From the NCBI RefSeq assembly GCF_012272825.1, contig NZ_JAAWWS010000145.1:186001-250000 (forward strand): a stretch of 64,000 bases of DNA. The letters are read 5' to 3'. A program made the translations under genes and the position numbers. Below are positions 2,312 to 52,242 of this stretch, piece after piece (the first letter of the stretch is position 1; every line of letters begins with the position of its first letter). Source of the stretch: Wenzhouxiangella sp. XN79A (GTDB taxonomy: Bacteria; Pseudomonadota; Gammaproteobacteria; Xanthomonadales; Wenzhouxiangellaceae). Under the pieces are notes generated by a model. The model did no database searches, was not told where the DNA came from, and saw nothing but the letters and a program-made list of their open reading frames with translations.

Positions 2312-2834
2312 CGTTTTCCGCCCAGTGGTCCTTCAGGGTCTGTTCCAGTGCCTTGGCCATGCGTGGCAGCGGCAGGTTGCGCGATTCGAACACGACATCG
2401 GCCAGCCCGGCGTAGATCGGGTTGCGCTGTTCGGCCATTCGCTCCAGGCGCTCGCGGCGGTCCGGCGTGGCCAGCAGCGGTCGCCGGCGATCGCGTTCCA
2501 GCCGCTTGATCTGCTGGGCCACGCTGGCATCGAGCCAGACCACGAGCCCGTGGGCGCGCAGCAGTTTCCGGTTGTCCTCGCGCAGCACCGAACCGCCGCC
2601 GGTGGCCACGACCCGACCGCGGCCTTCGGCCACCTCGGCCAGCAGCGCGTGCTCGCGCTCGCGGAAGCCGGCTTCGCCTTCGATCTCGAAGATCATGGCC
2701 ACCTCGACGCCGCAGCGCCGTTCGAGTTCCTCGTCGAGATCGATGAACTCGCGGTCGAGCGCGGCCGCCAGGCGCCGGCCCAGCGTTGTCTTGCCCGAGC
2801 CCATCGGACCGATCAGGAAGATGTTGTCGGGCAT
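2298..2834 (-). CDS. aroK: Shikimate kinase
   Basis: AroK phosphorylates shikimate at the 3-hydroxyl with ATP, step five of the shikimate pathway. The Walker A loop GPMGSGKTT is at residues 9-17, the shikimate-binding FIDLDEE follows near residue 33, and ATGGGSV near residue 78 contacts substrate. From the ATG at 2834 the product is 178 residues, the normal size. The frame is open far upstream, but that extension has no kinase-like sequence and lies antisense to the divergent glycosylase and exosortase genes, so I reject it. It is the first gene of the aroK-aroB-hemE operon and is transcribed away from the gene at 2889. Confidence 0.97.
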   Translation of the reverse strand: MPDNIFLIGPMGSGKTTLGRRLAAALDREFIDLDEELERRCGVEVAMIFEIEGEAGFREREHALLAEVAEGRGRVVATGGGSVLREDNRKLLRAHGLVVWLDASVAQQIKRLERDRRRPLLATPDRRERLERMAEQRNPIYAGLADVVFESRNLPLPRMAKALEQTLKDHWAENDVHS

Positions 2835-2876
2835 GGGACGGGTAAGGAAAAGGAATGGGCCGGATGATCGGAATGC

Positions 2877-2882
2877 TACAGT
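2877..2882 (+). promoter_or_regulatory. -10 hexamer giving a possible leaderless mRNA
   Basis: TACAGT (five of six to TATAAT) ends six bases before the ATG of the glycosylase gene at 2889. There is no room for a Shine-Dalgarno sequence between the expected transcription start and the ATG. No convincing -35 is visible. The same arrangement is seen at 18250 and 49260. Confidence 0.4.
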
Positions 2883-2888
2883 ACTTCG

Positions 2889-3434
2889 ATGCCCGGCACG
2901 CCGACGCTCGCCGATGACCTGCTGCAGGGCCTGGCCCCGGTGGCCGGCCCCGACGCGCGTGTGCTGATCCTCGGCAGCATGCCCGGCGTCCGGTCGCTGG
3001 ACGAGGCCCGCTACTACGCCCATCCGCGCAACGCGTTCTGGACGATCCTCGGCGCATGGACCGGCGTTGCGCCGGAGGCGGCCTATGCCGAACGGATCGA
3101 CGCGCTGCGCGCTCACGGTATCGCGCTGTGGGACGTGATCGGCCGCTGTCGTCGCTCCGGCAGCCTCGACAGCCGGATCGACCCGGCTTCGATCGAAGCC
3201 AACGACCTGGCCGGCCTGTTGCTTGCCTGCCCGCGGATCGAGCGGGTGCTGCTCAACGGCGGGCGCGCCGCGCAGGACTACCAGCGCCGGGTGCTGCCGA
3301 CGCTGGACGCGGCGGCGCGCGCGCTGCCGCGATTCCGCCTGCCGTCGACCTCGCCGGCCCACGCCTCGGTGTCGCTGGCGGCCAAGCGCAGCGCCTGGGA
3401 CGAGGCGCTGCGGCCGGTGCTGGGGGCGGGCTGA
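2889..3434 (+). CDS. Family 6 uracil-DNA glycosylase superfamily protein (hypoxanthine-DNA glycosylase)
   Basis: Single-domain glycosylase of the UDG superfamily, most like the family 6 enzymes that excise hypoxanthine (deaminated adenine) from DNA. The 181-residue protein carries LILGSMPGVRSL near residues 33-44, followed by YYAHPRNAFW, whose Asn is the expected active-site polar residue of this family. The C-terminal LPSTSPAHA is the second substrate-pocket motif (SxSPAxA). Mug/TDG enzymes lack the YYAHPRNxFW block, so family 6 fits better than family 2. It stands alone, divergent from aroK. The ATG lies six bases behind a -10-like TACAGT, so the mRNA may be leaderless. Confidence 0.88.
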   Translation: MPGTPTLADDLLQGLAPVAGPDARVLILGSMPGVRSLDEARYYAHPRNAFWTILGAWTGVAPEAAYAERIDALRAHGIALWDVIGRCRRSGSLDSRIDPASIEANDLAGLLLACPRIERVLLNGGRAAQDYQRRVLPTLDAAARALPRFRLPSTSPAHASVSLAAKRSAWDEALRPVLGAG

Positions 3435-3500
3435 GGACGTCGGCACGGGCACGCGGTTGCGGGTACCATATCGGTCCCGTTTTCGACCGGAAGGCCGCTC

Positions 3501-4037
3501 ATGGTCCGCTTCTTCATCCTGTTCATCGTGCTGCTGGTCTCGCTGTTCACCATCGAGGTCCTGCAGCCCGTCCAGGAACACGTGATCCTGCCGTTCACCG
3601 CAGGCCTGGCCTGGATTTCGGTCAACCTGATCGAACTGTTCGACTCCGGCGTGGCCTCGATGGGCAAGGTCATCCGCGACCTCGAGACCGGCTTCGCGGT
3701 CAGCATCGAGCCGGGCTGCAACGGCGTCGAGGCGCTGATCATCCTGTTCGCCGCGATCTTCGCGTTTCCGGCGCCGCTGAAGAACAAGCTGATCGGGTTC
3801 GCGATCGGTTTCGTCGCCATCCAGGGGCTGAACCTGGTCCGCATCATCAGCCTGTTCTACATGGGCCAGTGGAACATGACCTGGTTCAACTGGTTCCACC
3901 TCTACCTCTGGCAGGCGCTGATCATCCTCGATGCGCTGGTGGTCTGGCTGATCTGGCTGCGCATGCTGCCGCCGCCGGACAAGGGCGGGCCGCCGTCGGC
4001 GAAGGACGGACCCGACGCCGACCCCGCCACGGCCTGA
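3501..4037 (+). CDS. xrtH: Exosortase H (XrtH)
   Basis: Integral-membrane cysteine transpeptidase-like enzyme of the exosortase/archaeosortase superfamily. These enzymes cleave C-terminal sorting tails of exported proteins, and XrtH is assigned to IPTLxxWG-CTERM substrates. The 178-residue protein has about five membrane segments. The catalytic triad is visible: Cys73 in EPGCNGVEALII, Arg114 in NLVRII and His133 in NWFHLYLWQ. The short length without extra domains is typical of XrtH. A Shine-Dalgarno-like GGAAGG lies about eight bases before the ATG, and a -10-like TACCAT lies near 3465. No protein encoded in this window ends in an IPTLxxWG-type tail, so the targets must be elsewhere. Confidence 0.9.
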   Translation: MVRFFILFIVLLVSLFTIEVLQPVQEHVILPFTAGLAWISVNLIELFDSGVASMGKVIRDLETGFAVSIEPGCNGVEALIILFAAIFAFPAPLKNKLIGFAIGFVAIQGLNLVRIISLFYMGQWNMTWFNWFHLYLWQALIILDALVVWLIWLRMLPPPDKGGPPSAKDGPDADPATA

Positions 4038-4038
4038 C

Positions 4039-4914
4039 GTGGGCGGTCGCCTGCTGATCGCCGGTTGCGGCGATCTCGGGGTCCGGCTGGCCGGCCGGCT
4101 CGGCGCGGGCTGGCAGGTCACCGGCCTGCGCCGGTCGGTCGATCGGCTGCCCGGCACGCTGGTGCCGTTCGCGGCCGACCTTGCCGAGCCGGCCACGCTG
4201 GACCGGCTGCCGCGCGACTGGAACGCGGTGATCTACACCGCCACGCCCGGTGCGCGGGACGAGGCGGCCTACCGCCGGACCTACCTCGATGGCTTCCGTC
4301 ACCTGGTCGATCACGTACGCGCCGACCGGCTCATCTTCGTCTCCAGTACCGCGGTCTACGGCCAGGATGGCGGCGAGTGGGTCGACGAGGACGCCGAGAC
4401 CGCGCCGCAACGATTCAACGGGCAGGTGCTGCTCCAGGCCGAATCGCTGGCCCGCGCGGCCGGCGGCTGCGTGCTGCGGTTTTCCGGCATCTACGGACCG
4501 GGGCGCGATGCGCTGATCCGGCGGGTTCGCTCCGGGCGGGTGGCCTGCCGCCGCGAACCACCGATCTGGACCAACCGGATCCACGCCGACGACTGCGCGG
4601 CTGCGCTCGATCACCTGTTGCACCTAGCCCAGCCCGACCCGGTCTACCTGGCCAGCGACGACGCGCCGACGCCGCGCTGGGACGTGCTGAGCTGGCTGGC
4701 CGAGCGACTGGGCGCGCCGGGGCCGACGCCCGATCCGTCTTCCGATCCGGCTTCCGATCCGTCTTCCGATCCGTCTTCCGATCCGTCTTCCGATCCCGGC
4801 GCGCCGGGCGGGCAGGGCAAGCGCGTCTCGGCCGCGCGCCTGAAGGCGACGGGCTTTGCGGTACAGTACCCGGACTTCCGCGCCGGCTACGAGGCCCTGT
4901 TGGCATGCGACTGA
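4039..4914 (+). CDS. Atypical NAD(P)-dependent SDR epimerase/dehydratase (YeeZ-like)
   Basis: Rossmann-fold protein of the extended/atypical SDR group. The dinucleotide loop LLIAGCGDLGVRLAGRL is at residues 5-21, and VSSTAVYGQ is the usual Ser/Tyr strand, but the classical YxxxK pair is not clear. This resembles the E. coli YeeZ subgroup, whose substrate is unknown. The start is a GTG two bases after the xrtH stop, implying coupled translation. A Pro/Ser/Asp-rich insert (repeated SSDP) encoded by a 12-bp tandem repeat sits near residues 231-252, just before the C-terminal part. The 3' end overlaps pdxH by ten bases. Function beyond oxidoreductase is not supported. Confidence 0.8.
   Translation: MGGRLLIAGCGDLGVRLAGRLGAGWQVTGLRRSVDRLPGTLVPFAADLAEPATLDRLPRDWNAVIYTATPGARDEAAYRRTYLDGFRHLVDHVRADRLIFVSSTAVYGQDGGEWVDEDAETAPQRFNGQVLLQAESLARAAGGCVLRFSGIYGPGRDALIRRVRSGRVACRREPPIWTNRIHADDCAAALDHLLHLAQPDPVYLASDDAPTPRWDVLSWLAERLGAPGPTPDPSSDPASDPSSDPSSDPSSDPGAPGGQGKRVSAARLKATGFAVQYPDFRAGYEALLACD
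4732..4797 (+). repeat. 12-bp tandem repeat inside the SDR gene
   Basis: Five consecutive copies of GATCCGTCTTCC (the second has GATCCGGC) run from 4732 to 4791, followed by a partial unit. They encode a repeating Asp-Pro-Ser-Ser linker. The unit is a multiple of three, so copy-number change would alter linker length without frameshifting. Confidence 0.9.
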
Positions 4915-5558: not shown

Positions 5559-6188
5559 CTAGTCCCTCGTCCCTGATTCCTCGCCTTCGACCGGCGTCTT
5601 GCGGCGGGCGAGGTCGCGGACGACCCAGCGTTCGATCAGCTCCTTCTGCGGGGAGGCCTTCGGGTCGCGCGGGGCGTACAGGCCGGCGACTTCGCGCTGG
5701 CGCTGGGCTTCGTAGAGGATGACGGCGGCGGCCACCGAGACGTTCAGCGACTGCGTCATGCCGGCCATCGGGACGATGACCTCGCCGTCGCACAGGGCCA
5801 GCGCCTCGTCGCTGACGCCGAACTTCTCGGTGCCGAGGACCAGCGCCGTGGGCCGGGTGTAGTCGACCGACCGGAAGTCCACCGCGCGCTCGGAGAAGTG
5901 GGCCGCGTAGCAGGCGAATCCCGCGGCCTTGAGCGCGCCCAGTGCGGTCGCCGTGTCCGGGTGGCGCTCGAGGTCGATCCAGCGCTGGGCGCCCTGGCTG
6001 GTGGTATTGATCGACGGCAGGCCGTGGCTGCCGGGCACGGCATGGGCACGCTGGATGCCGACCGCGTCGCAGGTCCGGAGCACCGCGGCGAGATTGTGCG
6101 GCTTGTGGACCCGCTCCATGAACACCGTCAGGTCGTGCTGGCGGCTGCAGGCGGTGGCCTCGATGCGTTGTCTTCGTTCAGGCGTCAT
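5559..6188 (-). CDS. trmH: tRNA (guanosine(18)-2'-O)-methyltransferase
   Basis: SPOUT-class methyltransferase that 2'-O-methylates G18 in the tRNA D-loop using SAM. All three SPOUT motifs are present: NLAAVLRTCDAVG (motif 1, with the catalytic Arg), LVLGTEKFGVSDEAL (motif 2) and PMAGMTQSLNVSVAAA (motif 3, knot and SAM binding). The start MTPERRQRIEA at 6188 gives 209 residues, near the usual 210-230. The frame runs open upstream but has no homologous sequence there. The C-terminal extension (KELIERWVVRDLARRK) is typical of TrmH rather than RlmB. It lies tail-to-tail with pdxH. Confidence 0.93.
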   Translation of the reverse strand: MTPERRQRIEATACSRQHDLTVFMERVHKPHNLAAVLRTCDAVGIQRAHAVPGSHGLPSINTTSQGAQRWIDLERHPDTATALGALKAAGFACYAAHFSERAVDFRSVDYTRPTALVLGTEKFGVSDEALALCDGEVIVPMAGMTQSLNVSVAAAVILYEAQRQREVAGLYAPRDPKASPQKELIERWVVRDLARRKTPVEGEESGTRD

Positions 6189-6272
6189 GCCCGAATGGTA
6201 GCCTTGTCGGGTGATCCACGGGCCCTTGCCGGGTTTGCCCGTCCTCGTTGCTGCCTCGAACGGACCTCGACC

Positions 6273-6716
6273 ATGGCCGATTTTCTCCAGACCCTGCGCG
6301 ATATCCTGCACAGCCGGGAGCCGGACGATGCCCCCCAGGCGCTGCCGCGCGCCGCGGCAGTGCTGCTGCTGGAGATGGCGGTGACCGACGAGGGTGGCGA
6401 CGCCGCAGAGCGCGCGATCATCGAACGCGCGATCGCCAAGCATTTCGAATTGCCCGACGGCGAACTGACCGACCTGATCGCCGAGGCCGAGCGGCTGCGC
6501 GACGACGCGGTCTCGCTGCACGAGTTCACCCATCAGCTGCGCGCGGCGCTGGACGCCGAGCGGCGCGCCGACCTGGTCGAATGGCTGTGGCGGGTGGCCT
6601 TTGCCGACGGTCGGCTCGGCCATCACGAGGAGCACCTGGTGCGGAGACTGGCCGACCTGCTCGGCGTGCCGCACCGCGAGTTCATCCGGCGCAAGCACGC
6701 CGCGTCGCCGGAGTGA
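6273..6716 (+). CDS. TerB-family protein
   Basis: 147-residue helical protein of the TerB/TerB-like family. LLLEMAVTDEGGDAAERAII (near residues 32-51) and WRVAFADGRLGHHEEHLVRRLADLLG (second half) are the paired acidic helix-turn modules typical of TerB. In tellurite-resistance loci TerB binds metal at membranes, but stand-alone copies like this are common housekeeping genes of unknown function. No ter cluster partner is nearby. The ATG at 6273 lies about 85 bases from the divergent trmH start. Confidence 0.8.
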   Translation: MADFLQTLRDILHSREPDDAPQALPRAAAVLLLEMAVTDEGGDAAERAIIERAIAKHFELPDGELTDLIAEAERLRDDAVSLHEFTHQLRAALDAERRADLVEWLWRVAFADGRLGHHEEHLVRRLADLLGVPHREFIRRKHAASPE

Positions 6717-39765: not shown

Positions 39766-40398
39766 ATGGGTACAGGATTTCGTTACGTCATCTCCGTGCT
39801 GTTGGCCGTGATCGTCACGCTGGCGGCGTTCTACATGATGCATCGATTGATTTCGGGCGCCGGTGGGCAGCGCGAGGAAATCGAGCCGCCGCCGGGCATT
39901 CGCTTCGGGCCCGTCGAGATCGAGGAGAACCTGACCAAGGAAGAGCGCCGGCGACCCGAGCCGCCGCCGCCGCCGGATGAGCCGCCGCCGCCGCCCGATC
40001 TCGAGATCGCCCAGGTCGAGCAGCAGGCCGTGAACATGCCCGAGCTCGAGATGCCGGATCTGAACTTCTCGCCGACCGGCGGAAACCCCGTGCTCAACAG
40101 TTTCAACACCAACCGGAACGCCGAGGGTGACGTGGTGCCGCTGGTTCGGATCCAGCCGCAATATCCCCGGGATGCGGCGATGAACCAGATCGAAGGCTGG
40201 GTTCGCGTCCAGTTCACGATCACCGAGACCGGAACCGTGACCAACCCGCGCGTGATCGACGCCGAGCCACCGCGCGTGTTCGACCGGGCCGCGCTTCGCG
40301 CCATCCTGCGCTGGAAATTCAAGCCGAGGATCGTCGACGGCGTGGCCGTGTCACGCTCCGCAACCCAGCAGATCGATTTCAATCTGGACGGATCATGA
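39766..40398 (+). CDS. tonB: TonB family energy transducer
   Basis: 210-residue TonB protein. N-terminal membrane anchor about 6-25 (VISVLLAVIVTLAAFYM), then a proline-rich periplasmic linker (runs such as EPPPPPDEPPPPPD, about 66-79). The C-terminal TonB domain carries IQPQYPRDAAMNQIEGWVRV, NPRVIDAEPPRVFDRAAL and LRWKFKP, which contacts TonB boxes of receptors. Short relative to E. coli TonB, as is typical of TonB2. The start overlaps no gene; the 3' end overlaps the TPR gene by four bases. Confidence 0.93.
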   Translation: MGTGFRYVISVLLAVIVTLAAFYMMHRLISGAGGQREEIEPPPGIRFGPVEIEENLTKEERRRPEPPPPPDEPPPPPDLEIAQVEQQAVNMPELEMPDLNFSPTGGNPVLNSFNTNRNAEGDVVPLVRIQPQYPRDAAMNQIEGWVRVQFTITETGTVTNPRVIDAEPPRVFDRAALRAILRWKFKPRIVDGVAVSRSATQQIDFNLDGS

Positions 40399-41687
40399 TT
40401 CGCACGAACTCTTCTCTGACCCTTGCCGCGGCGCTGACTGCGGCGTTTGCGGCCAGTCTGGCAGCGCCGACCGCAGTGTTCGCCCAGGCCGAAGGAACGG
40501 TGACCTGCGGAGTCGAACGCGAGGTCGATCCGGGGCTGTTGTCCGAGCCGGTCTATCGGCGGCTCAACGACATCTTCGAGAAATTCGGCGAGGACCTGTT
40601 CGCCGAGGCCTACAACGACCTGGCCGAAATGCGCGAGCGTCGGCTGTCCGATTACGAAAAGGCATCGGTCGAGCAGGCCATGGGCTTTGCAGCCGCGCAG
40701 CAGGAGGATTACCAGCGCGCGATCCGGCATTTCAATGAAGCGATCCGGATCAATTCGATGCCGAACGACCAGCACTTCGAGATGATCCTGCAGGTCGCCC
40801 AGCTCTACAACGCCATCGAGCAGTACGACGAGGCCCTGGAGCAGCTCGATCTCTGGTTCTGCGTGTCCACCGAGGATGCCAAGAAGCAGGCCGACGTCTG
40901 GCTTCTGAAGGCCAACCTGCACATGCAGCGTGACGAGTTCCGGCAGGCGCTGGAATCCATCGACACGGCGATCGAGCTTCGCGAGGATCCGCCGGAGAGC
41001 TGGTACCGCGTCAAGCTCGGCATGCACATGGAGCTCGAGGAATGGCCGCCGGCCGTCGACGTGCTGAAGATCCTGATCGCGATGAACCCGGACCGAAAGG
41101 CCTACTGGATTCAGCTGTCGGGTATCCAGATCGAGCTCGATAACGAAGAGGAGGCCATGGCCGCCCTGCGCCTGGCCTGGCGCAAGGGTCTGCTCGACAA
41201 GGGTAGTGAATTCATTCAGTTGGCTGGCCTGCTGCAGGAGCTGGACTCGCCGCGTCAAGCGGCCTCGGTGCTCCAGGACGGGCTGGAACGCGGCATTGTC
41301 GATGCGACCACGCAGAACTGGGAAATGACCGCGGGCGCCTGGTACGAAGCGCGCGAGATGGACCAGGCGCTGGCGGCCTACGACCGCGCCGGCGAGCTTT
41401 CCGATAGCGGGAAGATCGACTTCCAGCGCGCCTCGATCCTGGTCAACCGTGAAGACTGGGATGAAGCGCTGGCCGCTGCGAACCGGGCGCTGGAAAAAGG
41501 CGACCTGACCGACTCGCAAGCAGGCAATGCACACATCCTCGTGGGCATGTCGCATTTCAATCTCGGCGATTACGATGAGGCCGAACAGGCCTTTAATCGT
41601 GCGTCGGACTATGGCAGACTCCGAGCAGCGGCGCAGGAGTGGATCAACCACATCAACCAGACACGCCAGCGGATAGCAAGCCGTTAA
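40395..41687 (+). CDS. TPR-repeat exported protein of the TonB operon
   Basis: 430 residues: signal peptide about 1-30 (ending VFAQAEGTV), then TPR-like helical repeats through most of the protein, e.g. ASVEQAMGFAAAQQEDYQRA and AQLYNAIEQYDEALEQLDLW. In Vibrio TonB2 operons a TPR gene follows tonB2, and this one matches in position and general shape. It is probably periplasmic and may help assemble or link the complex. There is no terminator-like structure before the next gene; an 88-base gap follows. Confidence 0.85.
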   Translation: MIRTNSSLTLAAALTAAFAASLAAPTAVFAQAEGTVTCGVEREVDPGLLSEPVYRRLNDIFEKFGEDLFAEAYNDLAEMRERRLSDYEKASVEQAMGFAAAQQEDYQRAIRHFNEAIRINSMPNDQHFEMILQVAQLYNAIEQYDEALEQLDLWFCVSTEDAKKQADVWLLKANLHMQRDEFRQALESIDTAIELREDPPESWYRVKLGMHMELEEWPPAVDVLKILIAMNPDRKAYWIQLSGIQIELDNEEEAMAALRLAWRKGLLDKGSEFIQLAGLLQELDSPRQAASVLQDGLERGIVDATTQNWEMTAGAWYEAREMDQALAAYDRAGELSDSGKIDFQRASILVNREDWDEALAAANRALEKGDLTDSQAGNAHILVGMSHFNLGDYDEAEQAFNRASDYGRLRAAAQEWINHINQTRQRIASR

Positions 41688-41775
41688 CAGGATGCGGATC
41701 ATCGAAACGCCGGAACGACAACGTCCGATGAACGCACTAACTGACCTTCGACATCGCTGACCGGGGAGGAAGACG

Positions 41776-42450
41776 ATGCAGAACAATACCGAGAGCACCT
41801 TGGACCAACAGGTCGGCGACGACGCTGGATCGGCAGGCACTGTTTCTCCGCCCGAGCCCGCTCCAGAGAAGAAGACTTCCAGGAAGAAGGCGTCCAAGAA
41901 GAAGGCTTCCAAGAAGAAGGCCTCCAAGAAGAAGGCGTCCAAGAAGAAGGCCTCCAAGAAGAAGGCGTCCAAGAAGAAGGCCTCCAAGAAGAAGGCCTCC
42001 AAGAAGAAGGCCTCCAAGAAGAAGGCCTCCAAGAAGAAGGCCTCCAAGAAGAAGGCCTCCAAGAAGAAGGCCTCCAAGAAGAAGGCCTCCAAGAAGAAGG
42101 CCTCCAAGAAGAAGGCCTCCAAGAAGAAGGCCTCCAAGAAGAAGGCTTCCAGGAAGAAGGCCTCCAAGAAGAAGGCCTCCAAGAAGAAGGCCTCCAAGAA
42201 GAAGGCCTCCAAGAAGAAGGCCTCCAAGAAGAAGGCCTCCAAGAAGAAGGCCTCCAAGAAGAAGGCCTCCAAGAAGAAGGCCTCCAAGAAGAAGGCCTCC
42301 AAGAAGAAGGCCTCCAAGAAGAAGGCCTCCAAGAAGAAGGCCTCCAAGAAAAAGGCCTCCAAGAAAAAGGCCTCCAAGAAAAAGGCCTCCAAGAAAAAGG
42401 CCTCCAAAAAGAAGGCGACCAGAAAAAAGGCCGGAAAAAAAAAGCGCTGA
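41776..42450 (+). CDS. Lys-rich pentapeptide-repeat protein (histone H1/AlgP-like)
   Basis: 224-residue protein. Residues 1-31 are an ordinary acidic/neutral start (MQNNTESTLDQQVGDDAGSA, then a PPEPAPE linker). From about residue 36 it is a continuous array of 36 pentads, almost all KKKAS, ending KKKAT-RKKAG-KKKR. It resembles AlgP/histone H1-like bacterial C-terminal arms, which bind DNA or RNA electrostatically, but it has no globular domain in this frame. The stop lies one codon past an A9 tract holding A AAA AAG, and a good helical frame continues in -1. The antisense large frames are shadows of this repeat. The function is not known. Confidence 0.85.
   Translation: MQNNTESTLDQQVGDDAGSAGTVSPPEPAPEKKTSRKKASKKKASKKKASKKKASKKKASKKKASKKKASKKKASKKKASKKKASKKKASKKKASKKKASKKKASKKKASKKKASKKKASKKKASRKKASKKKASKKKASKKKASKKKASKKKASKKKASKKKASKKKASKKKASKKKASKKKASKKKASKKKASKKKASKKKASKKKASKKKATRKKAGKKKR
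41881..42420 (+). repeat. 36 tandem copies of a 15-bp repeat (KKKAS)
   Basis: Thirty-six consecutive 15-bp units, consensus AAGAAGAAGGCCTCC, run in phase from 41881 to 42420. The first and the 19th encode RKKAS, the last KKKAT. Copies differ mostly at the third base of the Ala codon and, near the 3' end, by AAG to AAA. Such near-identical in-frame repeats are prone to copy-number change. Confidence 0.97.
42435..42444 (+). promoter_or_regulatory. Slippery A9 tract with A AAA AAG heptamer
   Basis: Nine A residues (42435-42443) followed by G. In the frame of the Lys-repeat gene the codons are GGA AAA AAA AAG CGC TGA, so A AAA AAG (42438-42444) sits in the same phase as the dnaX frameshift heptamer, one codon before the TGA at 42448. 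A five-base stem with the stop codon in its loop (42443-42447 with 42451-42455) follows immediately. A -1 shift opens the next 64 codons. Confidence 0.6.
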
Positions 42451-42638
42451 GCGCTGATCCGTGGGCCCGGCTGGCCGAGGCGGCTGAAATGATCCGGGAC
42501 GCGGCAAGCCAGATCGCCGCGCAGGAAGCGGCTGCCAGCCGCCGAGCGCTGGATGACATTGTCGGCGCAACGCGGTCGAAACTCGTCGACCTCGAGGAAA
42601 TGGCCGAGAAGGGCATTGCCCGGATCACCGGCAAGTAG
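42441..42638 (+). CDS. Helical phasin-like tail in the -1 frame behind the Lys-repeat gene
   Basis: After a -1 shift at the A9 tract, translation reads 64 residues from ALSADPWARLAEAAEMIRDA to KGIARITGK, ending TAG at 42636-42638. It is Ala/Glu/Arg-rich, shows heptad-like hydrophobic spacing, has no proline after residue 6, and resembles helical phasin-type segments. The frame's only internal ATG (42489, with GAGG eight bases upstream) would give a separate 49-residue protein, but the helical sequence begins well before it. It may be a fused C-terminal domain made by frameshift, transcriptional slippage or an assembly indel. I cannot tell which. Confidence 0.5.
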   Translation, partial: KALSADPWARLAEAAEMIRDAASQIAAQEAAASRRALDDIVGATRSKLVDLEEMAEKGIARITGK

Positions 42639-42660
42639 CTCATTGCACGGGCCGCCGGCG

Positions 42661-43554
42661 ATGGATGATCCGGGTGAGCTGATCGACCGCTTCATCGACG
42701 CCGCCTGGGCCGAAGACGGCCTGGCGCCGAAATCCCTCGACGCCTATCGAAACGACCTGACCGGGTTTGCCCGGTCGGGTCTTTTCGTGAGCGCCGGGCG
42801 CTTGATCGTCGTCGAACGACGCACGCTGATGGACCTGTTCGCGCAGCGATTGCGTGGCGGCACGCAGGTCAGCAGCCTGCGCCGACAGCTCAGCGCGCTG
42901 CGGCGCTTCTGCGCCTGGCTGCGGCGTGAGGGGCGAATGAACGACGATCCGCTGGCCCATTTCGAGCCGCCGCGTTCTCCGATGCGATTGCCCGGTGTGC
43001 TCAGCGAGAACGAAGTGGTTGCCCTGATGCGCTCGCCGGACGTGGATACAGCACTGGGGCTGCGCGACCGAGCGATGCTCGAGGTGCTCTACGCCAGCGG
43101 GCTGCGCGTCAGCGAGCTGGCCGGTCTGGAGCGGGCCAACGTGAACCTGCGACAGGGCGTGGTCCGGGTGACCGGAAAGGGCGGCAAGGATCGGCTCGTT
43201 CCGCTGGGCGATTCGGCCTGTGAATGGTTGACTCGCTGGATGGACGGGCCGCGCAGGGACTGGGCCGACGACTCGGACGATGCTGTGTTCGTATCCCGGC
43301 GCGGTCGTCGCTTGTCGAGGCAGGGCATCTGGCAGCGCATCCGTGGTCAGGCCCTGGCGCTGGGCTTCGGCTCGCGATTGACCCCCCACAAGCTGCGCCA
43401 TTCGTTCGCCACCCACATGCTCGATCACGGCGCCGACCTGCGAGTGGTCCAGATGCTGCTCGGTCACGCCGACCTGGCGACGACCCAGATCTACACCCAC
43501 GTGGCCCAGGCTCGACTCAAGGACCTGCATCATCGGCACCACCCGCGCGGTTAG
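42661..43554 (+). CDS. xerD: Site-specific tyrosine recombinase XerD
   Basis: 297-residue tyrosine recombinase that resolves chromosome dimers at dif with XerC. N-terminal SAM-like domain about 1-105, catalytic domain 110-297. Active residues visible: Arg in [12 protein letters not shown], Lys in [14 protein letters not shown], HxxR in [12 protein letters not shown], then [16 protein letters not shown] with the nucleophilic Tyr. The length equals E. coli XerD (298), and dsbC follows as in E. coli xerD-dsbC, which supports XerD over XerC. The ATG at 42661 lies 22 bases behind the phasin-like tail stop; a longer frame upstream is non-conserved. Confidence 0.94.
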
Positions 43555-44527: not shown

Positions 44528-44652
44528 AGGTCCGATCCATCCGGATTCCACGTCCGACCGGCCATCGGTCGGGCGTAGTGCTGTCGCGTTCCGACCGACC
44601 GATGAAGGACAGCGACCGCCTTCACGCCGCCCGTTCGGCCAGGCCGGGTCCG

Positions 44653-44658
44653 TATAAT
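44653..44658 (+). promoter_or_regulatory. -10 for purL
   Basis: TATAAT, a perfect consensus, lies 29 bases before the purL ATG (44688). No -35 matches well at 16-18 bases upstream. Confidence 0.5.
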
Positions 44659-44687
44659 GCGGGCCGTCCAGTCAGCGGGCCGCCGCG

Positions 44688-47600
44688 ATGAAGTTTCTGC
44701 TCGGCCGGGGTGGTCTTCCCCGGTTCAAGACCGCCGCACTTTCCGATCAACTCGTTCGCCGAATCGGGCGCCCCGTCCGGATCGACAGCCGCGAGTTCCT
44801 GATGCTCGATCTGGAGCCGGCTGCATGGGCCGAACGGTCCGAGGCCCTTCTCCAGGTGCTCGATGCCGAGCCGATGCCTTCCGGGATGCCGGACGCGACC
44901 CACCTGTTCGTGGTGCCGCGCCGCGGTGTGGTCAGCCCCTGGGCCAGCAAGGCCGGCGACATCCTCACCCGCTGCCACGTCGACGGCGTCCGAAGAGTCG
45001 AGCGCGGGACCTGGCTGCAGATCGAGGGAATCGAGCCCGATGAACTCGACGAGGAAACCCGGCAGCTCTTCTACGATCGGATGACCGAGGCGGCGGTCGA
45101 TGATCTTTCCGCGCTGGCGGACTGGTTCGAGCCGCTGGCGCCCGAGCCGCTGGGTCGGCTGGCGCTCGGCGACGATCCCGCCGCCGCCCTGGCGCGGGCC
45201 AACGACGAGATGGGCCTGGCGCTGAACGCCGACGAGATCGATTACCTGGTCGAGGCCTATGCGGCACTCGGCCGCGATCCGACCGATGCCGAGCTGATGA
45301 TGTTCGCGCAGGCCAATTCCGAGCACTGCCGGCACAAGATCTTCAACGCCGACTGGGTCGTCGATGGCGAGCCGCTCGGCGATTCGCTGTTCGGCATGAT
45401 CCGCACCACCCACCGCGAAACGCCCGACGGCGTGCTGGTCGCCTATGACGACAATGCGGCCGTCCTGCGTGGTTTCGACGGCGAGCTGTTCAGCCCCGGC
45501 ATCGATGATCCGGTCTGGCGGGTCGAGGCGCTGCCGCTGCATATTCAGATCAAGGTCGAGACGCATAACCATCCGACCGCGATCTCGCCCGAGCCGGGTG
45601 CCGCAACCGGGTCCGGCGGCGAAATCCGCGACGAGGCCGCGACCGGTCGCGGCGGTCGGCCGGTCGCGGGCCTGACCGGTTTCAGCGTGTCCGACCTGCG
45701 GATTCCGGACGCGCTCAGGCCCTGGGAGACCGCGCCGCCGCCGCCGTCGAGGCTGGCCACGGCGCTGGAAATCATGATCGAGGCGCCGATCGGCGCGGCC
45801 CGCTACAACAACGAATTCGGCCGACCGAACCTCGGCGGCTATTTCCGCACGTTTTCCGCCGAGATCGACGGTCGGCTGTGGGGCTACCACAAGCCGATCA
45901 TGATCGCCGGCGGCTCCGGCACCATTGCCGAGGGCCAGACCGGGAAGAAGCCGCTGGACGAGGGCTACCGGGTGATCGTGCTCGGCGGTCCGGCGATGCT
46001 GATCGGGCTCGGCGGCGGCGCGGCCTCCAGTGTCCATTCCGGCCAGTCCAGCGAGGCGCTGGATTTCGCCTCGGTCCAGCGCGCCAACCCCGAGATGGAG
46101 CGCCGCTGCCAGGAAGTCATCGACCGCTGCTGGTCGCTGGGCGCCGACAATCCGATCGCGTCGATCCACGACGTCGGTGCCGGCGGCCTGTCCAACGCCA
46201 TTCCCGAGCTGCTGGACGACGGCGGGGTCGGCGCCGAGCTGCAGCTGCGCGCGATTCCGGCCGCCGATCGTTCGCTGTCGCCGATGGCCATCTGGTGCAA
46301 CGAATCGCAGGAGCGCTACGTGCTGGCCGTGGCCGAGGACGACCTGGACCGCTTCCGCGCGATCTGCGAGCGCGAGCGCTGCCCGTTCGCCGACCTCGGG
46401 CCGGCGACGGCCGGTCATCGGCTGCATGTGGCCGACGCCGAGCACGGCGACGCCCCGGTCGACCTGGATCTCGATGTCCTGCTCGGCAAGACCCCCGCGC
46501 TGACCATGGACGTCTCGCGTGCTGCCGTTCCGGTCGACGACCGGGGTACCGAGGGCCTGGAGCCCGATGCAGCGCTCGACGCCGTGCTCGCCGTGCCCGC
46601 CGTGGCCAGCAAGCAGTTCCTGATCACCATCGGCGACCGGACGGTCGGCGGCCTGAGCGCCCGCGACCAGATGATCGGGCCGTGGCAAGTGCCGGTCGCC
46701 GACTGCGCGCTGACCCTGACCGACTATGCACACTACACCGGCACCGCGATGGCCATGGGCGAACGCAGCCCGCTGGCGGTCTGGGATGCCCCGGCCTCGG
46801 GCCGGATGGCGGTGGCCGAGGCCTTGACCAACCTGGCCGGCGTTGCACTGAGCGGTCGCCGTTCGATCAAGCTGTCGGCCAACTGGATGGCGGCCAGCGG
46901 TGCACCGGGCCAGGACGCCGCGCTGCGCGAAACCGTCGAGGCCGTCGCGTTGGCATTCTGCCGGTCGCTGGAACTGGCCATCCCGGTCGGCAAGGACTCG
47001 CTGTCGATGCAGACCCGCTGGCGCGATGCCGACGGCGATCAGGTGATGATCGCGCCGGTCTCGCTGATCGTCTCGGCCTTCGCGCCGGTCGACGATGTCC
47101 GCCGCGCGGTCACGCCCGAACTCCAGCTCGACGCCGGGCCGAGCGAACTGTTGCTGCTGGCCCTGCCCGGCATGCGGCTCGGCGGATCGGCGCTGGCCCA
47201 GGCCACCGGCCGTGCGTTGGGCGCGGTGCCGGACGTCGATTCGGTCGACGACTTCGCCGCGCTGTTCGACGCCGTCCAGCAGCTGCTGGCCGAAGGCCGG
47301 ATCCTGGCCCTGCACGATCGCTCCGACGGTGGCCTGCTGGTCAGCGTGCTCGAAATGGCACTTGCCGGGCACGCCGGGGTGGCCCTGGACCTGTCCGACG
47401 ACGTCGATCCGATCGCTGCGCTGTTCAACGAGGAGATCGGCCTGGTCGTCCAGGCGCGGGCCGCCGACCGGACCGCGATCGAGCAGCGACTGGCCGATGC
47501 CGGGCTGGCCCATGCGCTGACCGTGCTCGGCCGGGTGACCGGCGACGATCGGCTGCGCGTTGCACGGGCCGGTGCGACCTGCATCGACCGTCCGCTGGCC

Positions 47601-48527
47601 GAGCTGCACAGGGCCTGGGCATCGACCAGCTGGCGCGTCCAGCGGTTGCGCGACCATCCCGACTGCGCCGACGAGGAATTCGGGCAGCTGGCCGACTGGT
47701 CGCGGCCGGGGCTTGCGCCGGTCGTCACCTTCGACGCCGCTCCGCCGCCGGTCGTCGGAACGGCGCGTCCGCGGGTGGCGATCCTGCGCGAGCAGGGCGT
47801 CAACGGCCAGCGCGAAATGGCGCGGGCCTTCCACGTCGCGGGGTTCGAGGCCGTCGACGTGCACATGAGCGACCTCGAGCACGGTCGCCAGGTGCTCGAC
47901 GGCTTTCACGGGCTGGCCGTGTGCGGCGGGTTCTCGTTCGGCGACGTGCTCGGCGCCGGCAACGGCTGGGCGCGATCGATCCGCTTCAGCCGCCGTCTCG
48001 GTGACCAGTTCCGGTCCTTCTTCGACCGGCCCGACACCTTCACGCTCGGCGTCTGCAACGGGTGCCAGATGCTGTCTGCGCTGGCTTCGATGATTCCGGG
48101 CGCGGCCCACTGGCCGCAATTCGTCCACAACCGCTCGCGCCAGTTCGAGGCTCGCCTGAGCCTGGTCGAAATCGTCGAATCGCCGTCGATCCTGCTGGCC
48201 GGGATGGCCGGTAGCCGCCTGCCGGTGGCCACGGCCCACGGTGAAGGCCGCGCCGTGTTCGCCGATGACCGGGCCCGCTCCTCGGCGCGCGTCGCGGTGC
48301 GCTACGTCGATGGCTACGGCCGTCCGGCCGAGCGCTATCCCGACAATCCGAACGGCTCGCCCGCCGGGATCACCGGCCTGACCAGCGACGACGGCCGCGC
48401 GACCATTCTGATGCCGCACCCGGAACGGCTGCTGCGCGCGGTCAACTATTCCTGGGCCCCGACCGAGTGGGGCGAGTGGTCGCCGTGGATGCGGATGTTC
48501 GAAAACGCGCGCCGATGGGTAGACTAG
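44688..48527 (+). CDS. purL: Phosphoribosylformylglycinamidine synthase
   Basis: 1279-residue single-chain FGAM synthase of de novo purine synthesis, converting FGAR, glutamine and ATP to FGAM. The N-terminal region is followed by two AIR-synthase-like halves with QANSEHCRHKIFNADWVV, VETHNHPTAISPEPGAATGS and ASSVHSGQSSEALDFASVQR. The C-terminal glutamine amidotransferase has PRVAILREQGVNGQREMA and the nucleophile Cys in TLGVCNGCQMLSAL. All domains are intact. Monocistronic or leading into the next gene 33 bases later. Confidence 0.97.
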   Translation: MKFLLGRGGLPRFKTAALSDQLVRRIGRPVRIDSREFLMLDLEPAAWAERSEALLQVLDAEPMPSGMPDATHLFVVPRRGVVSPWASKAGDILTRCHVDGVRRVERGTWLQIEGIEPDELDEETRQLFYDRMTEAAVDDLSALADWFEPLAPEPLGRLALGDDPAAALARANDEMGLALNADEIDYLVEAYAALGRDPTDAELMMFAQANSEHCRHKIFNADWVVDGEPLGDSLFGMIRTTHRETPDGVLVAYDDNAAVLRGFDGELFSPGIDDPVWRVEALPLHIQIKVETHNHPTAISPEPGAATGSGGEIRDEAATGRGGRPVAGLTGFSVSDLRIPDALRPWETAPPPPSRLATALEIMIEAPIGAARYNNEFGRPNLGGYFRTFSAEIDGRLWGYHKPIMIAGGSGTIAEGQTGKKPLDEGYRVIVLGGPAMLIGLGGGAASSVHSGQSSEALDFASVQRANPEMERRCQEVIDRCWSLGADNPIASIHDVGAGGLSNAIPELLDDGGVGAELQLRAIPAADRSLSPMAIWCNESQERYVLAVAEDDLDRFRAICERERCPFADLGPATAGHRLHVADAEHGDAPVDLDLDVLLGKTPALTMDVSRAAVPVDDRGTEGLEPDAALDAVLAVPAVASKQFLITIGDRTVGGLSARDQMIGPWQVPVADCALTLTDYAHYTGTAMAMGERSPLAVWDAPASGRMAVAEALTNLAGVALSGRRSIKLSANWMAASGAPGQDAALRETVEAVALAFCRSLELAIPVGKDSLSMQTRWRDADGDQVMIAPVSLIVSAFAPVDDVRRAVTPELQLDAGPSELLLLALPGMRLGGSALAQATGRALGAVPDVDSVDDFAALFDAVQQLLAEGRILALHDRSDGGLLVSVLEMALAGHAGVALDLSDDVDPIAALFNEEIGLVVQARAADRTAIEQRLADAGLAHALTVLGRVTGDDRLRVARAGATCIDRPLAELHRAWASTSWRVQRLRDHPDCADEEFGQLADWSRPGLAPVVTFDAAPPPVVGTARPRVAILREQGVNGQREMARAFHVAGFEAVDVHMSDLEHGRQVLDGFHGLAVCGGFSFGDVLGAGNGWARSIRFSRRLGDQFRSFFDRPDTFTLGVCNGCQMLSALASMIPGAAHWPQFVHNRSRQFEARLSLVEIVESPSILLAGMAGSRLPVATAHGEGRAVFADDRARSSARVAVRYVDGYGRPAERYPDNPNGSPAGITGLTSDDGRATILMPHPERLLRAVNYSWAPTEWGEWSPWMRMFENARRWVD

Positions 48528-48560
48528 TGTGCCCCGAGCCCGACTTCCAGTGATGATCCG

Positions 48561-49193
48561 ATGAGCGAACCGCAGCGACCGGAATCGAACGAGCCGTCGA
48601 ACGACGACGAGATCTCGATCAGCGACAACCCGATCAAGGAGATGTTCCTGCTGGCGATCCTGTACCTGCCGCTGGGCTTCTTCCTGTGGTTCTACCTGGC
48701 CTCGGCGCTGATGTGGTTCCCGGCCCGGCTGACCGACTGGGCGCTGACCGGTCTGTTCCCGGAGATCTTCCGCGACGTCGTGCAGTTCGGCTACCGGCTC
48801 GAGATCCAGCTGCAGTTCGTTCGCCCGGAGGGGCGGATCGCGCTGGCCGATCGCGAAATCATGATCTACGCCTGGGGCATGGCGCTGCTGTTCGGGCTGA
48901 TCATGGCCACGCCGATGTCGATCAAGCGGCGGCTGGCCCAACTCGGGATCGGCTACGTGGTGGTCTCCTTCGTGACCGCCTGGGGTGCGTTCTGGGACGC
49001 GATGAAGGAAGTGGCGTTCAAGGTCCAGCCCGAAGGTGTGGCCGCGATCGCCCAGACGGCGGTGTCGCCGACGATGATCGCGCTGTTCTACCAGCTCGGC
49101 TACCTGATGCTGCCGGCCGTCGTTCCGCTGGCCACCTGGATCCTGATGAACCGGCCGTTCCTCGAAGACGTCGTGTTCACCCGCAAGCGCTGA
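48561..49193 (+). CDS. Membrane protein, possibly exosortase-H-associated
   Basis: 210 residues. A Ser/Glu/Asp-rich cytoplasmic N-terminus (about 1-28) is followed by a helix (about 31-53, LAILYLPLGFFLWFYLASAL), a loop of about 60 residues, and three helices (about 105-122, 130-145, 170-196). The set of motifs NPIKEMFLLAILYLPLGFF and MIYAWGMALLFGLIMATP reminds me of the short membrane proteins found beside xrtH in other Gammaproteobacteria, but this is recollection of a pattern and not a match I could check. xrtH itself is 45 kb away here. purL lies upstream and gspE downstream, with no functional link evident. Confidence 0.5.
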   Translation: MSEPQRPESNEPSNDDEISISDNPIKEMFLLAILYLPLGFFLWFYLASALMWFPARLTDWALTGLFPEIFRDVVQFGYRLEIQLQFVRPEGRIALADREIMIYAWGMALLFGLIMATPMSIKRRLAQLGIGYVVVSFVTAWGAFWDAMKEVAFKVQPEGVAAIAQTAVSPTMIALFYQLGYLMLPAVVPLATWILMNRPFLEDVVFTRKR

Positions 49194-49259
49194 GCCCCGG
49201 CCCGGGGAACCCGCCGACACGGCGGCTGTCCATTGCAGGCGACCGCTGAAGGGTATCCG

Positions 49260-49265
49260 TATAAT
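49260..49265 (+). promoter_or_regulatory. -10 for the gsp operon, near-leaderless
   Basis: TATAAT ends six bases before the gspE ATG (49272), so the transcript would start at or very near the ATG. GAAGGG lies about 20 bases before the ATG, too far to serve as ribosome binding site. No -35 with a 16-18 base spacer is convincing. Confidence 0.5.
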
Positions 49266-49271
49266 CCCGCC

Positions 49272-51023
49272 ATGGAACACGCTCTGACCGCAACCGGCGA
49301 AACCGACCTGCTGCCCCAGGTCGGCGATCATCTCGAGGATCGCGCAGCCGAACTGTGCTCGCTTCTGATCGAACAGGGTCGCCTGCGGTCGGAGGACCTG
49401 GCCCGCGCCCGCGCCTACCGCGAACAGCACGGCGGCAACCTGCTGACCCTGCTGGTCCGGCTGGGCCTGGTCTCGGAGCGCGACCTGGCCTCGGCCCAGT
49501 CCGATCTGCTCGGGGTCCCGCTGGTTTCCGAGAAGGACTACCCGGAACAGGCACCGGAGATCGAGTCGATCTCGGTCCGGTTCATGAAGCAGCAACACCT
49601 GGTGCCGATCCGGGTCGACGACGGCACGCTGCAGGTGGTCATGGCCGATCCGCAGAACCCGGCCATGCTCAAGGCGCTGCGCATGGCGACCGGGCTGACG
49701 GTCGAGCCCAGCGTCGGCATCACCTCGGAAATCGACAACGCGATCGAACGCTACTTCGGTGGCGGACGCAGCGCGATGGGCCAGATCGCCGAGGGGCTCG
49801 GTTCGGACGTCGAGAGCGACGACGAGGAAAACGTCGAGCACCTTCGCGACCTGGCCTCCGAAGCGCCGGTCATCCGGCTGGTCAACCTGATCCTGGGCCG
49901 GGCGGTCGAAGCGCGGGCCTCCGACATCCACATCGAGCCGTTCGAGAACCGGCTCAAGGTCCGCTACCGCATCGACGGCGTGCTTCAGGAAGTCGAAGCG
50001 CCGCCGGCGCGTTCGACCGCGGCGGTGATCTCGCGCGTCAAGATCATGGCCAAGCTCAACATCGCCGAGCGTCGCCTGCCGCAGGACGGCCGCATCATGC
50101 ACCGCGTCTCGGGCAAGGAGCTGGATCTGCGCGTCTCGACCGTGCCGACCTCGCACGGCGAGAGCGTGGTCATGCGAATTCTCGACCGCGAGGCGGTGAC
50201 GCTGGATTTCGGTGCGCTGGGCTTCGCCGAGGACACCCGCGACCGGTTCATCCGCCAGCTCGAGATGCCGCACGGCATCATCCTGGTGACGGGACCGACC
50301 GGCTCGGGCAAGACCACCACCTTGTACACGGCGCTCAGCCAGCTCAACGCGCCGTCGCGCAAGATCATCACCGTCGAAGACCCGGTCGAGTACCAGCTCG
50401 AGGGCGTCAACCAGATCCAGGCCAAGTCGTCGATCGGCCTGAATTTCGCCGCGGCGCTCCGCGCGATCGTCCGCCAGGACCCGGACGTGATCATGATCGG
50501 CGAGATGCGCGACCTGGAAACCGCCAAGATCGCGATCCAGTCGGCCTTGACCGGGCACCTGGTGCTGTCGACGCTGCACACCAACGATGCCGCCGGCGGC
50601 GTCACCCGGATGCTCGACATGGGCGTGGAGGACTACCTGCTGACCTCCACGGTCAACGCGATCATGGCCCAGCGCCTGGTCCGCCGGCTCGATCCCGCGA
50701 CCCGCGAGCCGTTCGAAGTGCTGCCGGAGATGGTCGAAGAACTGGGCCTGCGCGCGCTGACCGACGCCGACCCGATCACCCTGTATCGCCCCGGCAGCTC
50801 CGAGGTCAATCCGACCGGCTACAAGGGCCGCTCCAGCATCATCGAGCTGCTCCAGATGTCCGACGAGATCCGTCGCATGGTCATGAAGCAGGCTACCGCC
50901 GGCGAGATCGAACGGCAGGCCGTGGCCGAGGGCATGCGCACGATGTACGCCGACGGCATGCTCAAGGCGCTGAACGGCACGACCAGCGTCGAGGAAGTCC
51001 TGCGCGTCACCCAGGAAGCCTGA
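49272..51023 (+). CDS. gspE: Type II secretion ATPase GspE
   Basis: 583-residue cytoplasmic ATPase powering the type II secretion pseudopilus. N-terminal domain about 1-150; the ATPase core has DIHIEPFENRLKVRYRIDGV, Walker A GPTGSGKTTT, TVEDPVEYQLEGVNQIQ, Walker B DVIMIGEMRD and GHLVLSTLHTNDA. The C-terminal tetracysteine zinc motif of ordinary GspE (two CxxC pairs) is absent: the sequence reads RRLDPATREPFEVLPEM and RPGSSEVNPTGYKGRSS with no Cys. Otherwise complete. First gene of the xps-order operon. The in-frame upstream extension is rejected because the ATG at 49272 follows a -10. Confidence 0.95.
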   Translation: MEHALTATGETDLLPQVGDHLEDRAAELCSLLIEQGRLRSEDLARARAYREQHGGNLLTLLVRLGLVSERDLASAQSDLLGVPLVSEKDYPEQAPEIESISVRFMKQQHLVPIRVDDGTLQVVMADPQNPAMLKALRMATGLTVEPSVGITSEIDNAIERYFGGGRSAMGQIAEGLGSDVESDDEENVEHLRDLASEAPVIRLVNLILGRAVEARASDIHIEPFENRLKVRYRIDGVLQEVEAPPARSTAAVISRVKIMAKLNIAERRLPQDGRIMHRVSGKELDLRVSTVPTSHGESVVMRILDREAVTLDFGALGFAEDTRDRFIRQLEMPHGIILVTGPTGSGKTTTLYTALSQLNAPSRKIITVEDPVEYQLEGVNQIQAKSSIGLNFAAALRAIVRQDPDVIMIGEMRDLETAKIAIQSALTGHLVLSTLHTNDAAGGVTRMLDMGVEDYLLTSTVNAIMAQRLVRRLDPATREPFEVLPEMVEELGLRALTDADPITLYRPGSSEVNPTGYKGRSSIIELLQMSDEIRRMVMKQATAGEIERQAVAEGMRTMYADGMLKALNGTTSVEEVLRVTQEA

Positions 51024-51030
51024 GCGCACC

Positions 51031-52242
51031 GTGCCGATCTTCGAATACAAGGCCGTCACGCCCGCCGGCGAAACCCTGACCGGCGAGATGGAAGCGCCCA
51101 CCGCCGACCTGGTCGTGGCGCACATTCAGGAAACCGGCAACATTCCGGTCCAGGCCAAGGAAGTCGGCGCCGGCTTCCGGCTCGAGACCCTGTTCCGCGG
51201 CCGCCAGGGCCTGACCCAGCGCGAAATCGGCGACCTGACCGGCCAGCTGGCCACGCTGCTCGGCGCCGGCCTGCCGCTGGACCGCTCGCTCGGCATCCTG
51301 GTCGAGCTGGCCGAGAACGAGCGGGTCGAGCGGATGCTGTCGAAGATCCGCGACCGGGTCCGCGAGGGGATCTCGTTGTCCGAGGCGCTGGAAGAACGCC
51401 ACGGCGTGTTCTCGCGCTTCTACATCAACATGGTCCGGGCCGGCGAGCTGGGCGGTGCGCTGGACCAGACCCTGGCGCGGATGTCGGAATACCTCGAGCG
51501 GGCCAAGGAACTCAAGGACGGCGTGGTCTCGGCGCTGATCTACCCGGCGTTGCTGGTGATCCTGGCGATCGCCTCGCTGATGCTGCTGATGATCTACGTG
51601 ATCCCGCAGTTCACGCCGATGTTCGAGGACTTCGGCGCCGACCTGCCGCTGATGACCAAGGTCGTCGTGGCCATCGGCGAACTGCTTCGTGGCTACTGGT
51701 GGGCGCTGGCCGGCGGTTTCGCGCTGGTCGTGCTGTGGTTCCGCGGCCAGATGGCGCGGCCCGCTTCGCGGCTGCGCTGGGACGCCCGCTTCCTGAAGAT
51801 GAAGTGGATCGGCGACGTGATCGCCAGGATCGAGATGGCCCGGCTGGCCCGGACCACCGGCACGCTGCTGATCAACGGCGTACCGCTGCTGTCGGCGATC
51901 TCGATCGCGCGTAACGTCATGGGCAATACCGTGCTGCGCGAGGACGTCGGCGTGGCGGCCAAGAAGGTCAAGACCGGTGCCCCGCTGGCCCGCGCGCTGA
52001 ACGAGAGCGGCAATTTTCCGCGCCTGGCGCTGCAGATGATCAACGTCGGCGAGGAAACCGGTCAACTCGACGAGATGTTGCTGAAGGTCGCCGATACCTA
52101 CGACCGCGAGGTCAAGACCACGATCGACCGGCTGATGGCGCTGCTGGTGCCGGCCCTGACCCTGGGCCTGGCCGCGGTGATCGGCTTCATCGTCATGTCG
52201 GTGCTCATGGCGATCCTGAGCATCAACGAACTGGTCGGCTGA
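51031..52242 (+). CDS. gspF: Type II secretion inner membrane platform protein GspF
   Basis: 403-residue polytopic protein at the centre of the type II secretion platform. Start GTG at 51031, seven bases after gspE. The N-terminus MPIFEYKAVTPAGETLTGEM is standard, followed by two homologous GspF cytoplasmic domains (TQREIGDLTGQLATLLGAGL and ARLARTTGTLLINGVPLLSA) with three membrane helices (about 170-195, 220-242, 375-400). Confidence 0.95.
   Translation: MPIFEYKAVTPAGETLTGEMEAPTADLVVAHIQETGNIPVQAKEVGAGFRLETLFRGRQGLTQREIGDLTGQLATLLGAGLPLDRSLGILVELAENERVERMLSKIRDRVREGISLSEALEERHGVFSRFYINMVRAGELGGALDQTLARMSEYLERAKELKDGVVSALIYPALLVILAIASLMLLMIYVIPQFTPMFEDFGADLPLMTKVVVAIGELLRGYWWALAGGFALVVLWFRGQMARPASRLRWDARFLKMKWIGDVIARIEMARLARTTGTLLINGVPLLSAISIARNVMGNTVLREDVGVAAKKVKTGAPLARALNESGNFPRLALQMINVGEETGQLDEMLLKVADTYDREVKTTIDRLMALLVPALTLGLAAVIGFIVMSVLMAILSINELVG

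Follow-up and report, generated by a model that had tools for sequence, protein, structure and literature searches.

A gene for a lysine-repeat protein in Wenzhouxiangella sp. XN79A ends at a run of nine adenines (A9), beyond which a conserved, predicted helical tail is encoded in the -1 frame. The same arrangement occurs in a sister species, and the changes between the two mark the tail as being under purifying selection. On balance we lean towards the view that slippage on the A9 run yields two proteins, one without the tail and one with it, through RNA polymerase and perhaps additionally through -1 slipping of the ribosome. The window analyzed here is a 64-kb part of a 279-kb contig, in a genome of 3.75 Mb (99.97% complete, 171 contigs) that we call G000; G004 denotes the sister species, and the family is Wenzhouxiangellaceae. 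The relevant features, in window coordinates, are as follows.

40395..41687, plus strand: gene for a TPR-repeat protein, directly 5' of the repeat gene; its 3' end holds the same place in G004
41776..42450, plus strand: repeat gene, a 0-frame ORF of 224 aa with SKKKA pentads, ending at TGA
42435..42443, plus strand: A9 run at the seam of repeat and tail, the proposed slippage site; 0-frame GGA AAA AAA AAG
42448..42450, plus strand: 0-frame stop TGA, one codon (CGC) past the AAG
42444..42638, plus strand: -1-frame tail of 64 codons plus TAG, a conserved domain and predicted single helix
42489..42491, plus strand: ATG within the tail, a possible independent start, absent in G004 and unconserved
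42443..42455, minus strand: weak 5-pair hairpin followed by a T run, terminator-like, matched by 11% of shuffles
42661..43554, plus strand: xerD-like tyrosine recombinase, its start at 42661 assumed from homology

The repeat protein begins with the short N-terminus MQNNTESTLDQQ, carries 38 lysine pentads that fit x(K/R)KK(A/R), 34 of them SKKKA, and closes with ...TRKKAGKKKR-stop, the seam itself reading GGA AAA AAA AAG CGC TGA. An earlier, sequence-only reading of this DNA had described the A9 run at 42435-42443, its phase, and 64 stop-free -1 codons up to the TAG at 42636-42638, and each of these was found again on inspection. That reading also stressed an A AAA AAG heptamer, which is indeed present in the phase of dnaX-type sites; the phase carries no independent weight, however, since any A9 followed by G, with a downstream frame at -1, contains an A AAA AAG so phased. 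A further statement, that one added A gives the same fusion as a -1 shift, holds in both genomes: when lengths of 8, 9, 10 and 11 A's are read through, 10 alone leads into the tail, and an A10 would restore the usual fusion and pentad (GKKKA in G000, AKKKA in G004).

The repeat ORF has no Pfam match, and its comparison with the NCBIfam histone-H1-like model NF038053 gave an E value of 0.22 and a score of 11.8 bits, where the cut-off is 80. From its sequence, the protein is H1-like in character and would probably bind nucleic acid or another polyanion. Chlamydia Hc2 is an H1-like bacterial protein with a long Lys-rich repeat. A long Lys-rich repeat joined to a helical part is likewise described for AlgP (PMC9239181), whose repeat peptides bind DNA, and for PhaF (PMC3574117), whose repeat is thought to do so. 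The present gene differs from these H1-like proteins in having SKKKA pentads rather than KPAA, in carrying its helix at the C-terminus rather than the N-terminus, and in matching no family model at cut-off. A second copy in G033 (L032) has an RRGRPPGSK stretch followed by a Lys repeat and a divergent tail; we take the RGRP stretch to be an AT-hook-like motif, which would fit nucleic-acid binding. There are further matches in G024, G026, G016 and G061 as well.

The tail is a real conserved domain, judged by its recurrence among relatives. Homologues with E values of 3e-15 to 8e-20 are found in four of the five other genomes of the genus, the exception being G002 (85% complete), and at E ≤ 0.01 the tail is present in 25 of 61 genomes, its own included. 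A profile search at E ≤ 0.001 places it in 30 of 43 family genomes. When 299 genomes sampled from the order were searched at E ≤ 1e-6, the 29 with a tail were all among the 43 family members, and all 256 genomes outside the family were without it. Carriers (10 loci) include Wenzhouxiangella sp., Wenzhouxiangella limi, Lysobacteraceae, Gammaproteobacteria and an uncultured proteobacterium. AlphaFold2 (11 sequences) predicts one helix spanning residues 6-62, with a mean pLDDT of 94.2; a hydrophobic-moment scan has no single clear peak, and comparison with Pfam, NCBIfam and PDB sequences returned weak matches only, none above a curated cut-off. The tail had been called a helical anchor; what is predicted is a long helix, with anchoring as a putative role.

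The relation between repeat and tail was inspected at 26 loci, of which 24 have a visible seam, L008 and L026 being cut by contig ends. At 22 of these 24 the tail is fused in frame to the repeat next to it, and on this comparison the tail belongs to the repeat gene. The other two seams, those of the window and of G004 (L007), have the tail in -1; the G004 seam (L007:1474-1482) reads GCA AAA AAA AAG CCC CTC TGA. G001 (L010) and G018 (L027) also have an A9 run at this point, but their tail is in frame; there, by reading the frames, a transcript with 8, 10 or 11 A's would stop early. A9 is therefore present at four visible seams, exactly nine long at each, and three of the four are from one genus. 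L017, a near-copy of L015 that stands outside the 26-locus set, is in frame; three loci from later searches (L036, L042 and L073) have the tail in frame and no A run of at least 7. The later-found loci are only partly covered, and the seams of G061, G064 and G066 are outside these counts. At L014, in the single-contig genome G022, the Lys repeat is interrupted midway by one surplus T (GCCTTCC), a +1 break that splits the frames of N-terminus and tail, the tail-adjacent repeat remaining in frame; the surplus T could be either an assembly error or real.

The possibility that the tail is a separate small protein, begun at the ATG at 42489 or at a CTG overlapping the stop, is highly improbable. 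An AGGCGG lies just 5' of the ATG, and a tail-frame CTG overlaps the 0-frame TGA in both genomes, though the frame relation forces NTG at that place. Against it, the conserved domain starts 5' of 42489, the tail homologues are fused to the repeat, and the G004 tail has no ATG, GTG or TTG before codon 63, which is the first such codon in its frame. In neither G000 nor G004 does the -1 frame 5' of the seam offer an ATG, GTG or TTG.

Between G000 and G004, the differences in the tail fall on codon positions 1, 2 and 3 as 11, 10 and 37 (p = 2e-6 against one third), with pS of 0.68 and pN of 0.17; a second alignment gave 10, 9 and 37, with pS of 0.68 and pN of 0.15. The neighbouring TPR gene, used as a yardstick for the same pair, has pS of 0.51 and pN of 0.12, and the only difference in tail length between the two genomes amounts to seven whole codons in the first alignment. 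By these measures the tail is under purifying selection between the two out-of-frame genomes. The two genomes are sisters on the XerD tree (support 90/92, below the 95 mark), so that the simplest history is a -1 shift in their common ancestor, with the tail under selection ever since. A decaying frameshift, with the tail lost and drifting, could account for the shift itself; the strong codon-position bias, and a pN far below pS between two genomes that both have the tail out of frame, make it the least probable of the explanations considered. The codon-position signal speaks against decay, but the loss of an A in both assemblies would leave an identical signal.

Such a loss, with a true run of A10 and a plain in-frame fusion as in other species, had been named as the main competitor; it is still the chief rival, weakened by the A9 of a second species rather than refuted, and we consider it unlikely. 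Homopolymers are frequent failure points of assemblies, one more A restores the usual form in both genomes, and the G022 repeat contains another frame break. The identical error would, however, be required in two separate genomes, and the G001 and G018 runs are also exactly nine long. Moreover, of 50 ORFs picked from the window, 48 match within 80 kb of G004. Of these, 44 keep a single frame across more than 85% of the ORF, although antisense artefacts, for example 42640-43542, are included among the 44. The stretches compared hold no other run of at least 7, so the comparison bears only indirectly on accuracy at long homopolymers. The remaining four of the 48 are two antisense artefacts (39831-42695 and 44622-51125), one with what looks like an over-extended start (5559-6698), and 2298-4196. 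Even if A10 has been misread in both assemblies, a slippery run would still be left at the seam.

The A9 run is the sole homopolymer of at least 7 in the 64-kb window, and likewise in 80 kb of G004. Lys(AAA) codons make up 8 of 113 lysine codons in the G000 gene, 3 of 133 in G004 and 7 of 99 in G018, so that lysine is nearly always AAG in these genes. In 5000 permutations of the lysine codons, any A9 arose in 1.5%, 0.06% and 1.06% of cases, respectively, and A9 is thus unlikely to result from codon use in these AAG-rich genes. The G001 gene is AAA-rich (60 of 105): every permutation gave some A9, at the seam position in 19%, and its A9 is expected from its codon use. A9G occurs three times in the genome of G000, twice each in G004, G018 and G005, five times in G001 and not at all in G003, and one of the occurrences in each of G000, G004 and G018 is the seam.

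Nine of the ten non-seam A9G sites in G000, G004, G018, G001 and G005 look, by eye, like minus-strand terminators in which a hairpin precedes T9 or T10. A hairpin of this kind is absent from the tenth site, L170 of G001, which sits within an open frame of 288 codons. Of the nine, three are also within mechanically open frames of 376-583 codons, so we do not claim that the terminator-like sites are intergenic. This resemblance, together with 5-pair hairpins adjoining the minus-strand T run in G000 and G004, raises the very improbable alternative of an antisense intrinsic terminator, with A9 serving as its T-tract and being slippery only by coincidence. Shuffled flanks equal those hairpins in 11% and 12% of cases, however, and no hairpin was found at the G001 or G018 seams. 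From the seam to 52242, plus-strand ORFs of 246, 1279, 210, 596 and 403 aa follow xerD, and those from 1279 to 403 aa have the order and near lengths of plus-strand ORFs in G004; the minus-strand ORFs of that stretch therefore look like artefacts, and no gene that such a terminator might serve is evident. An antisense terminator would also leave the -1 tail unexplained.

The usual family form is a polylysine repeat ending in a predicted helix of about 60 residues, which the A9 of G000 and G004 places in the -1 frame. In the slippage model that we prefer, RNA polymerase would slip on A9. Transcripts with 9 or 11 A's would then encode the short protein, closing with ...KKKR-stop or with a few different residues, and those with 10 A's the repeat-plus-helix protein. 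Ribosomes slipping by -1 at A AAA AAG would arrive at this long product too, and could contribute to its amount. In G001 and G018, where A9 is in frame, slippage would make the short form. The helix probably oligomerises the polycation or targets it, in which case packing would be tuned by how much of each form is made. Expression of two products is what we infer here. Two marks of genes that use slippage are present, namely a run of about nine or more A/T in coding sequence and, in the frame that a slip would open, sequence whose coding is conserved. Efficient slippage at nine A/T is described in a review by Atkins (PMC5009743). According to Baranov et al. 2005 (PMC1088944), nine A/T is the length at which a large share of bacterial genomes show selection against slippage. 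Ribosomes have also been documented to slide while making polylysine, in an E. coli system (PMC9207662). Set against the model, the -1 arrangement occurs in only two genomes, 20 of the 24 visible seams have no A9, the +1 shift of G022 shows that frame breaks of other origin arise in the family, there is no clear stimulatory fold, and the A9 of G001 is expected.

The sequence-only reading had put a ribosomal shift like that of dnaX first and transcriptional slippage second; the likeness to E. coli dnaX is weakened, and slippage fits better. The two share A AAA AAG in the right phase, but the shift here would give a longer product. In dnaX-type shifting, tRNA-Lys(UUU) is the sole decoder of AAG; among the 30 of 43 tRNA matches in which anticodons were read, G000 has both tRNA-Lys, CUU (L091) and UUU (L096). 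The sequence 3' of the A run in G000 folds no better than shuffles (z of 0.71 and -0.22); the G004 fold is weak (z of -1.32 and -1.61, equalled by 20 and 15 of 200 shuffles). A search of 42200-42800 against Rfam returned nothing at gathering score, and the dnaX gene of G000 itself has no A run of 6 and no AAAAAAG. The presence of both tRNA-Lys, the lack of a clear fold and a dnaX without the site lead us to favour RNA-polymerase slippage over the E. coli dnaX mechanism.

By way of comparison, Thermus thermophilus dnaX has an A9 late in its coding sequence, slippage that sets long versus short product, and two tRNA-Lys (PMC5009743, PMC1088944). Its products are reported at about 1:1 (PMC5009743, PMC1088944), and the second, AAG-reading tRNA-Lys has been suggested as the reason that Thermus uses polymerase rather than ribosome slippage (PMC5009743). 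The long product of Thermus lies in the 0 frame, as in G001 and G018, whereas in G000 and G004 it would need the proposed slip. This is the arrangement of Shigella mxiE and of IS elements with A8 or A9, in which the templated sequence gives a short product and the slipped transcript a long one (PMC1088944), although the product there is a regulator or a transposase and here a lysine-repeat protein.

Phase variation would act differently, the A tract changing length at DNA replication so that any one cell would produce a single form, short or tailed. Poly-A/T tracts are able to cause it (PMC3711429), the homopolymer lies within coding sequence, and the frame relation of repeat and tail varies between species of the genus; yet all four A9 runs are exactly nine (with one genome per species) and there is no sign of a surface protein, and we regard this explanation as improbable.

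A wider proposal can be offered only tentatively, as less probable than slippage itself: that several species maintain A9 at the seam under selection, as a device by which one H1-like gene gives tailed and tail-less polycations in a ratio set by RNA polymerase, with the tail frame at -1 in G000 and G004 and at 0 in G018 and G001. We know of few cellular bacterial genes that make two products by slippage, and among the papers listed there was no report of recoding in an SKKKA or H1-like gene of the family. If slippage does operate at this seam, a nucleoid-type polycation would join this short list, related species would differ in their default product, which would make the effect of the helix testable, and ordinary gene calling would truncate the protein in two species.

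An xerD match starts within 150 bases past the tail match on the same contig in 29 of 30 tail-bearing genomes (coordinates compared by hand), the exception being G023, which has no xerD match at E ≤ 1e-70. Within the xerD coding sequence, at 42754-42785 on the plus strand (about codons 32-42), lies a terminator-like 12-bp hairpin followed by TTTT. The hairpin falls at matching codons in G000, G004, G001 and G005, where by eye both arms of the stem have undergone changes, and is found neither in G003 nor in 21 xerD genes of other genera in which the place was located (it was not located in four more). The pattern occurs once in the G000 genome and may mark the end of the upstream operon or attenuate xerD. 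Across the repeat, a candidate acidic 'QEEGL' protein in the -1 frame, with 297 open codons including the tail, was rejected for want of an ATG, GTG or TTG 5' of the seam. Minus-strand ORFs of 954, 314 and 277 aa also cross the repeat (41860-42430), and these long open frames are probably by-products of its 15-base period.
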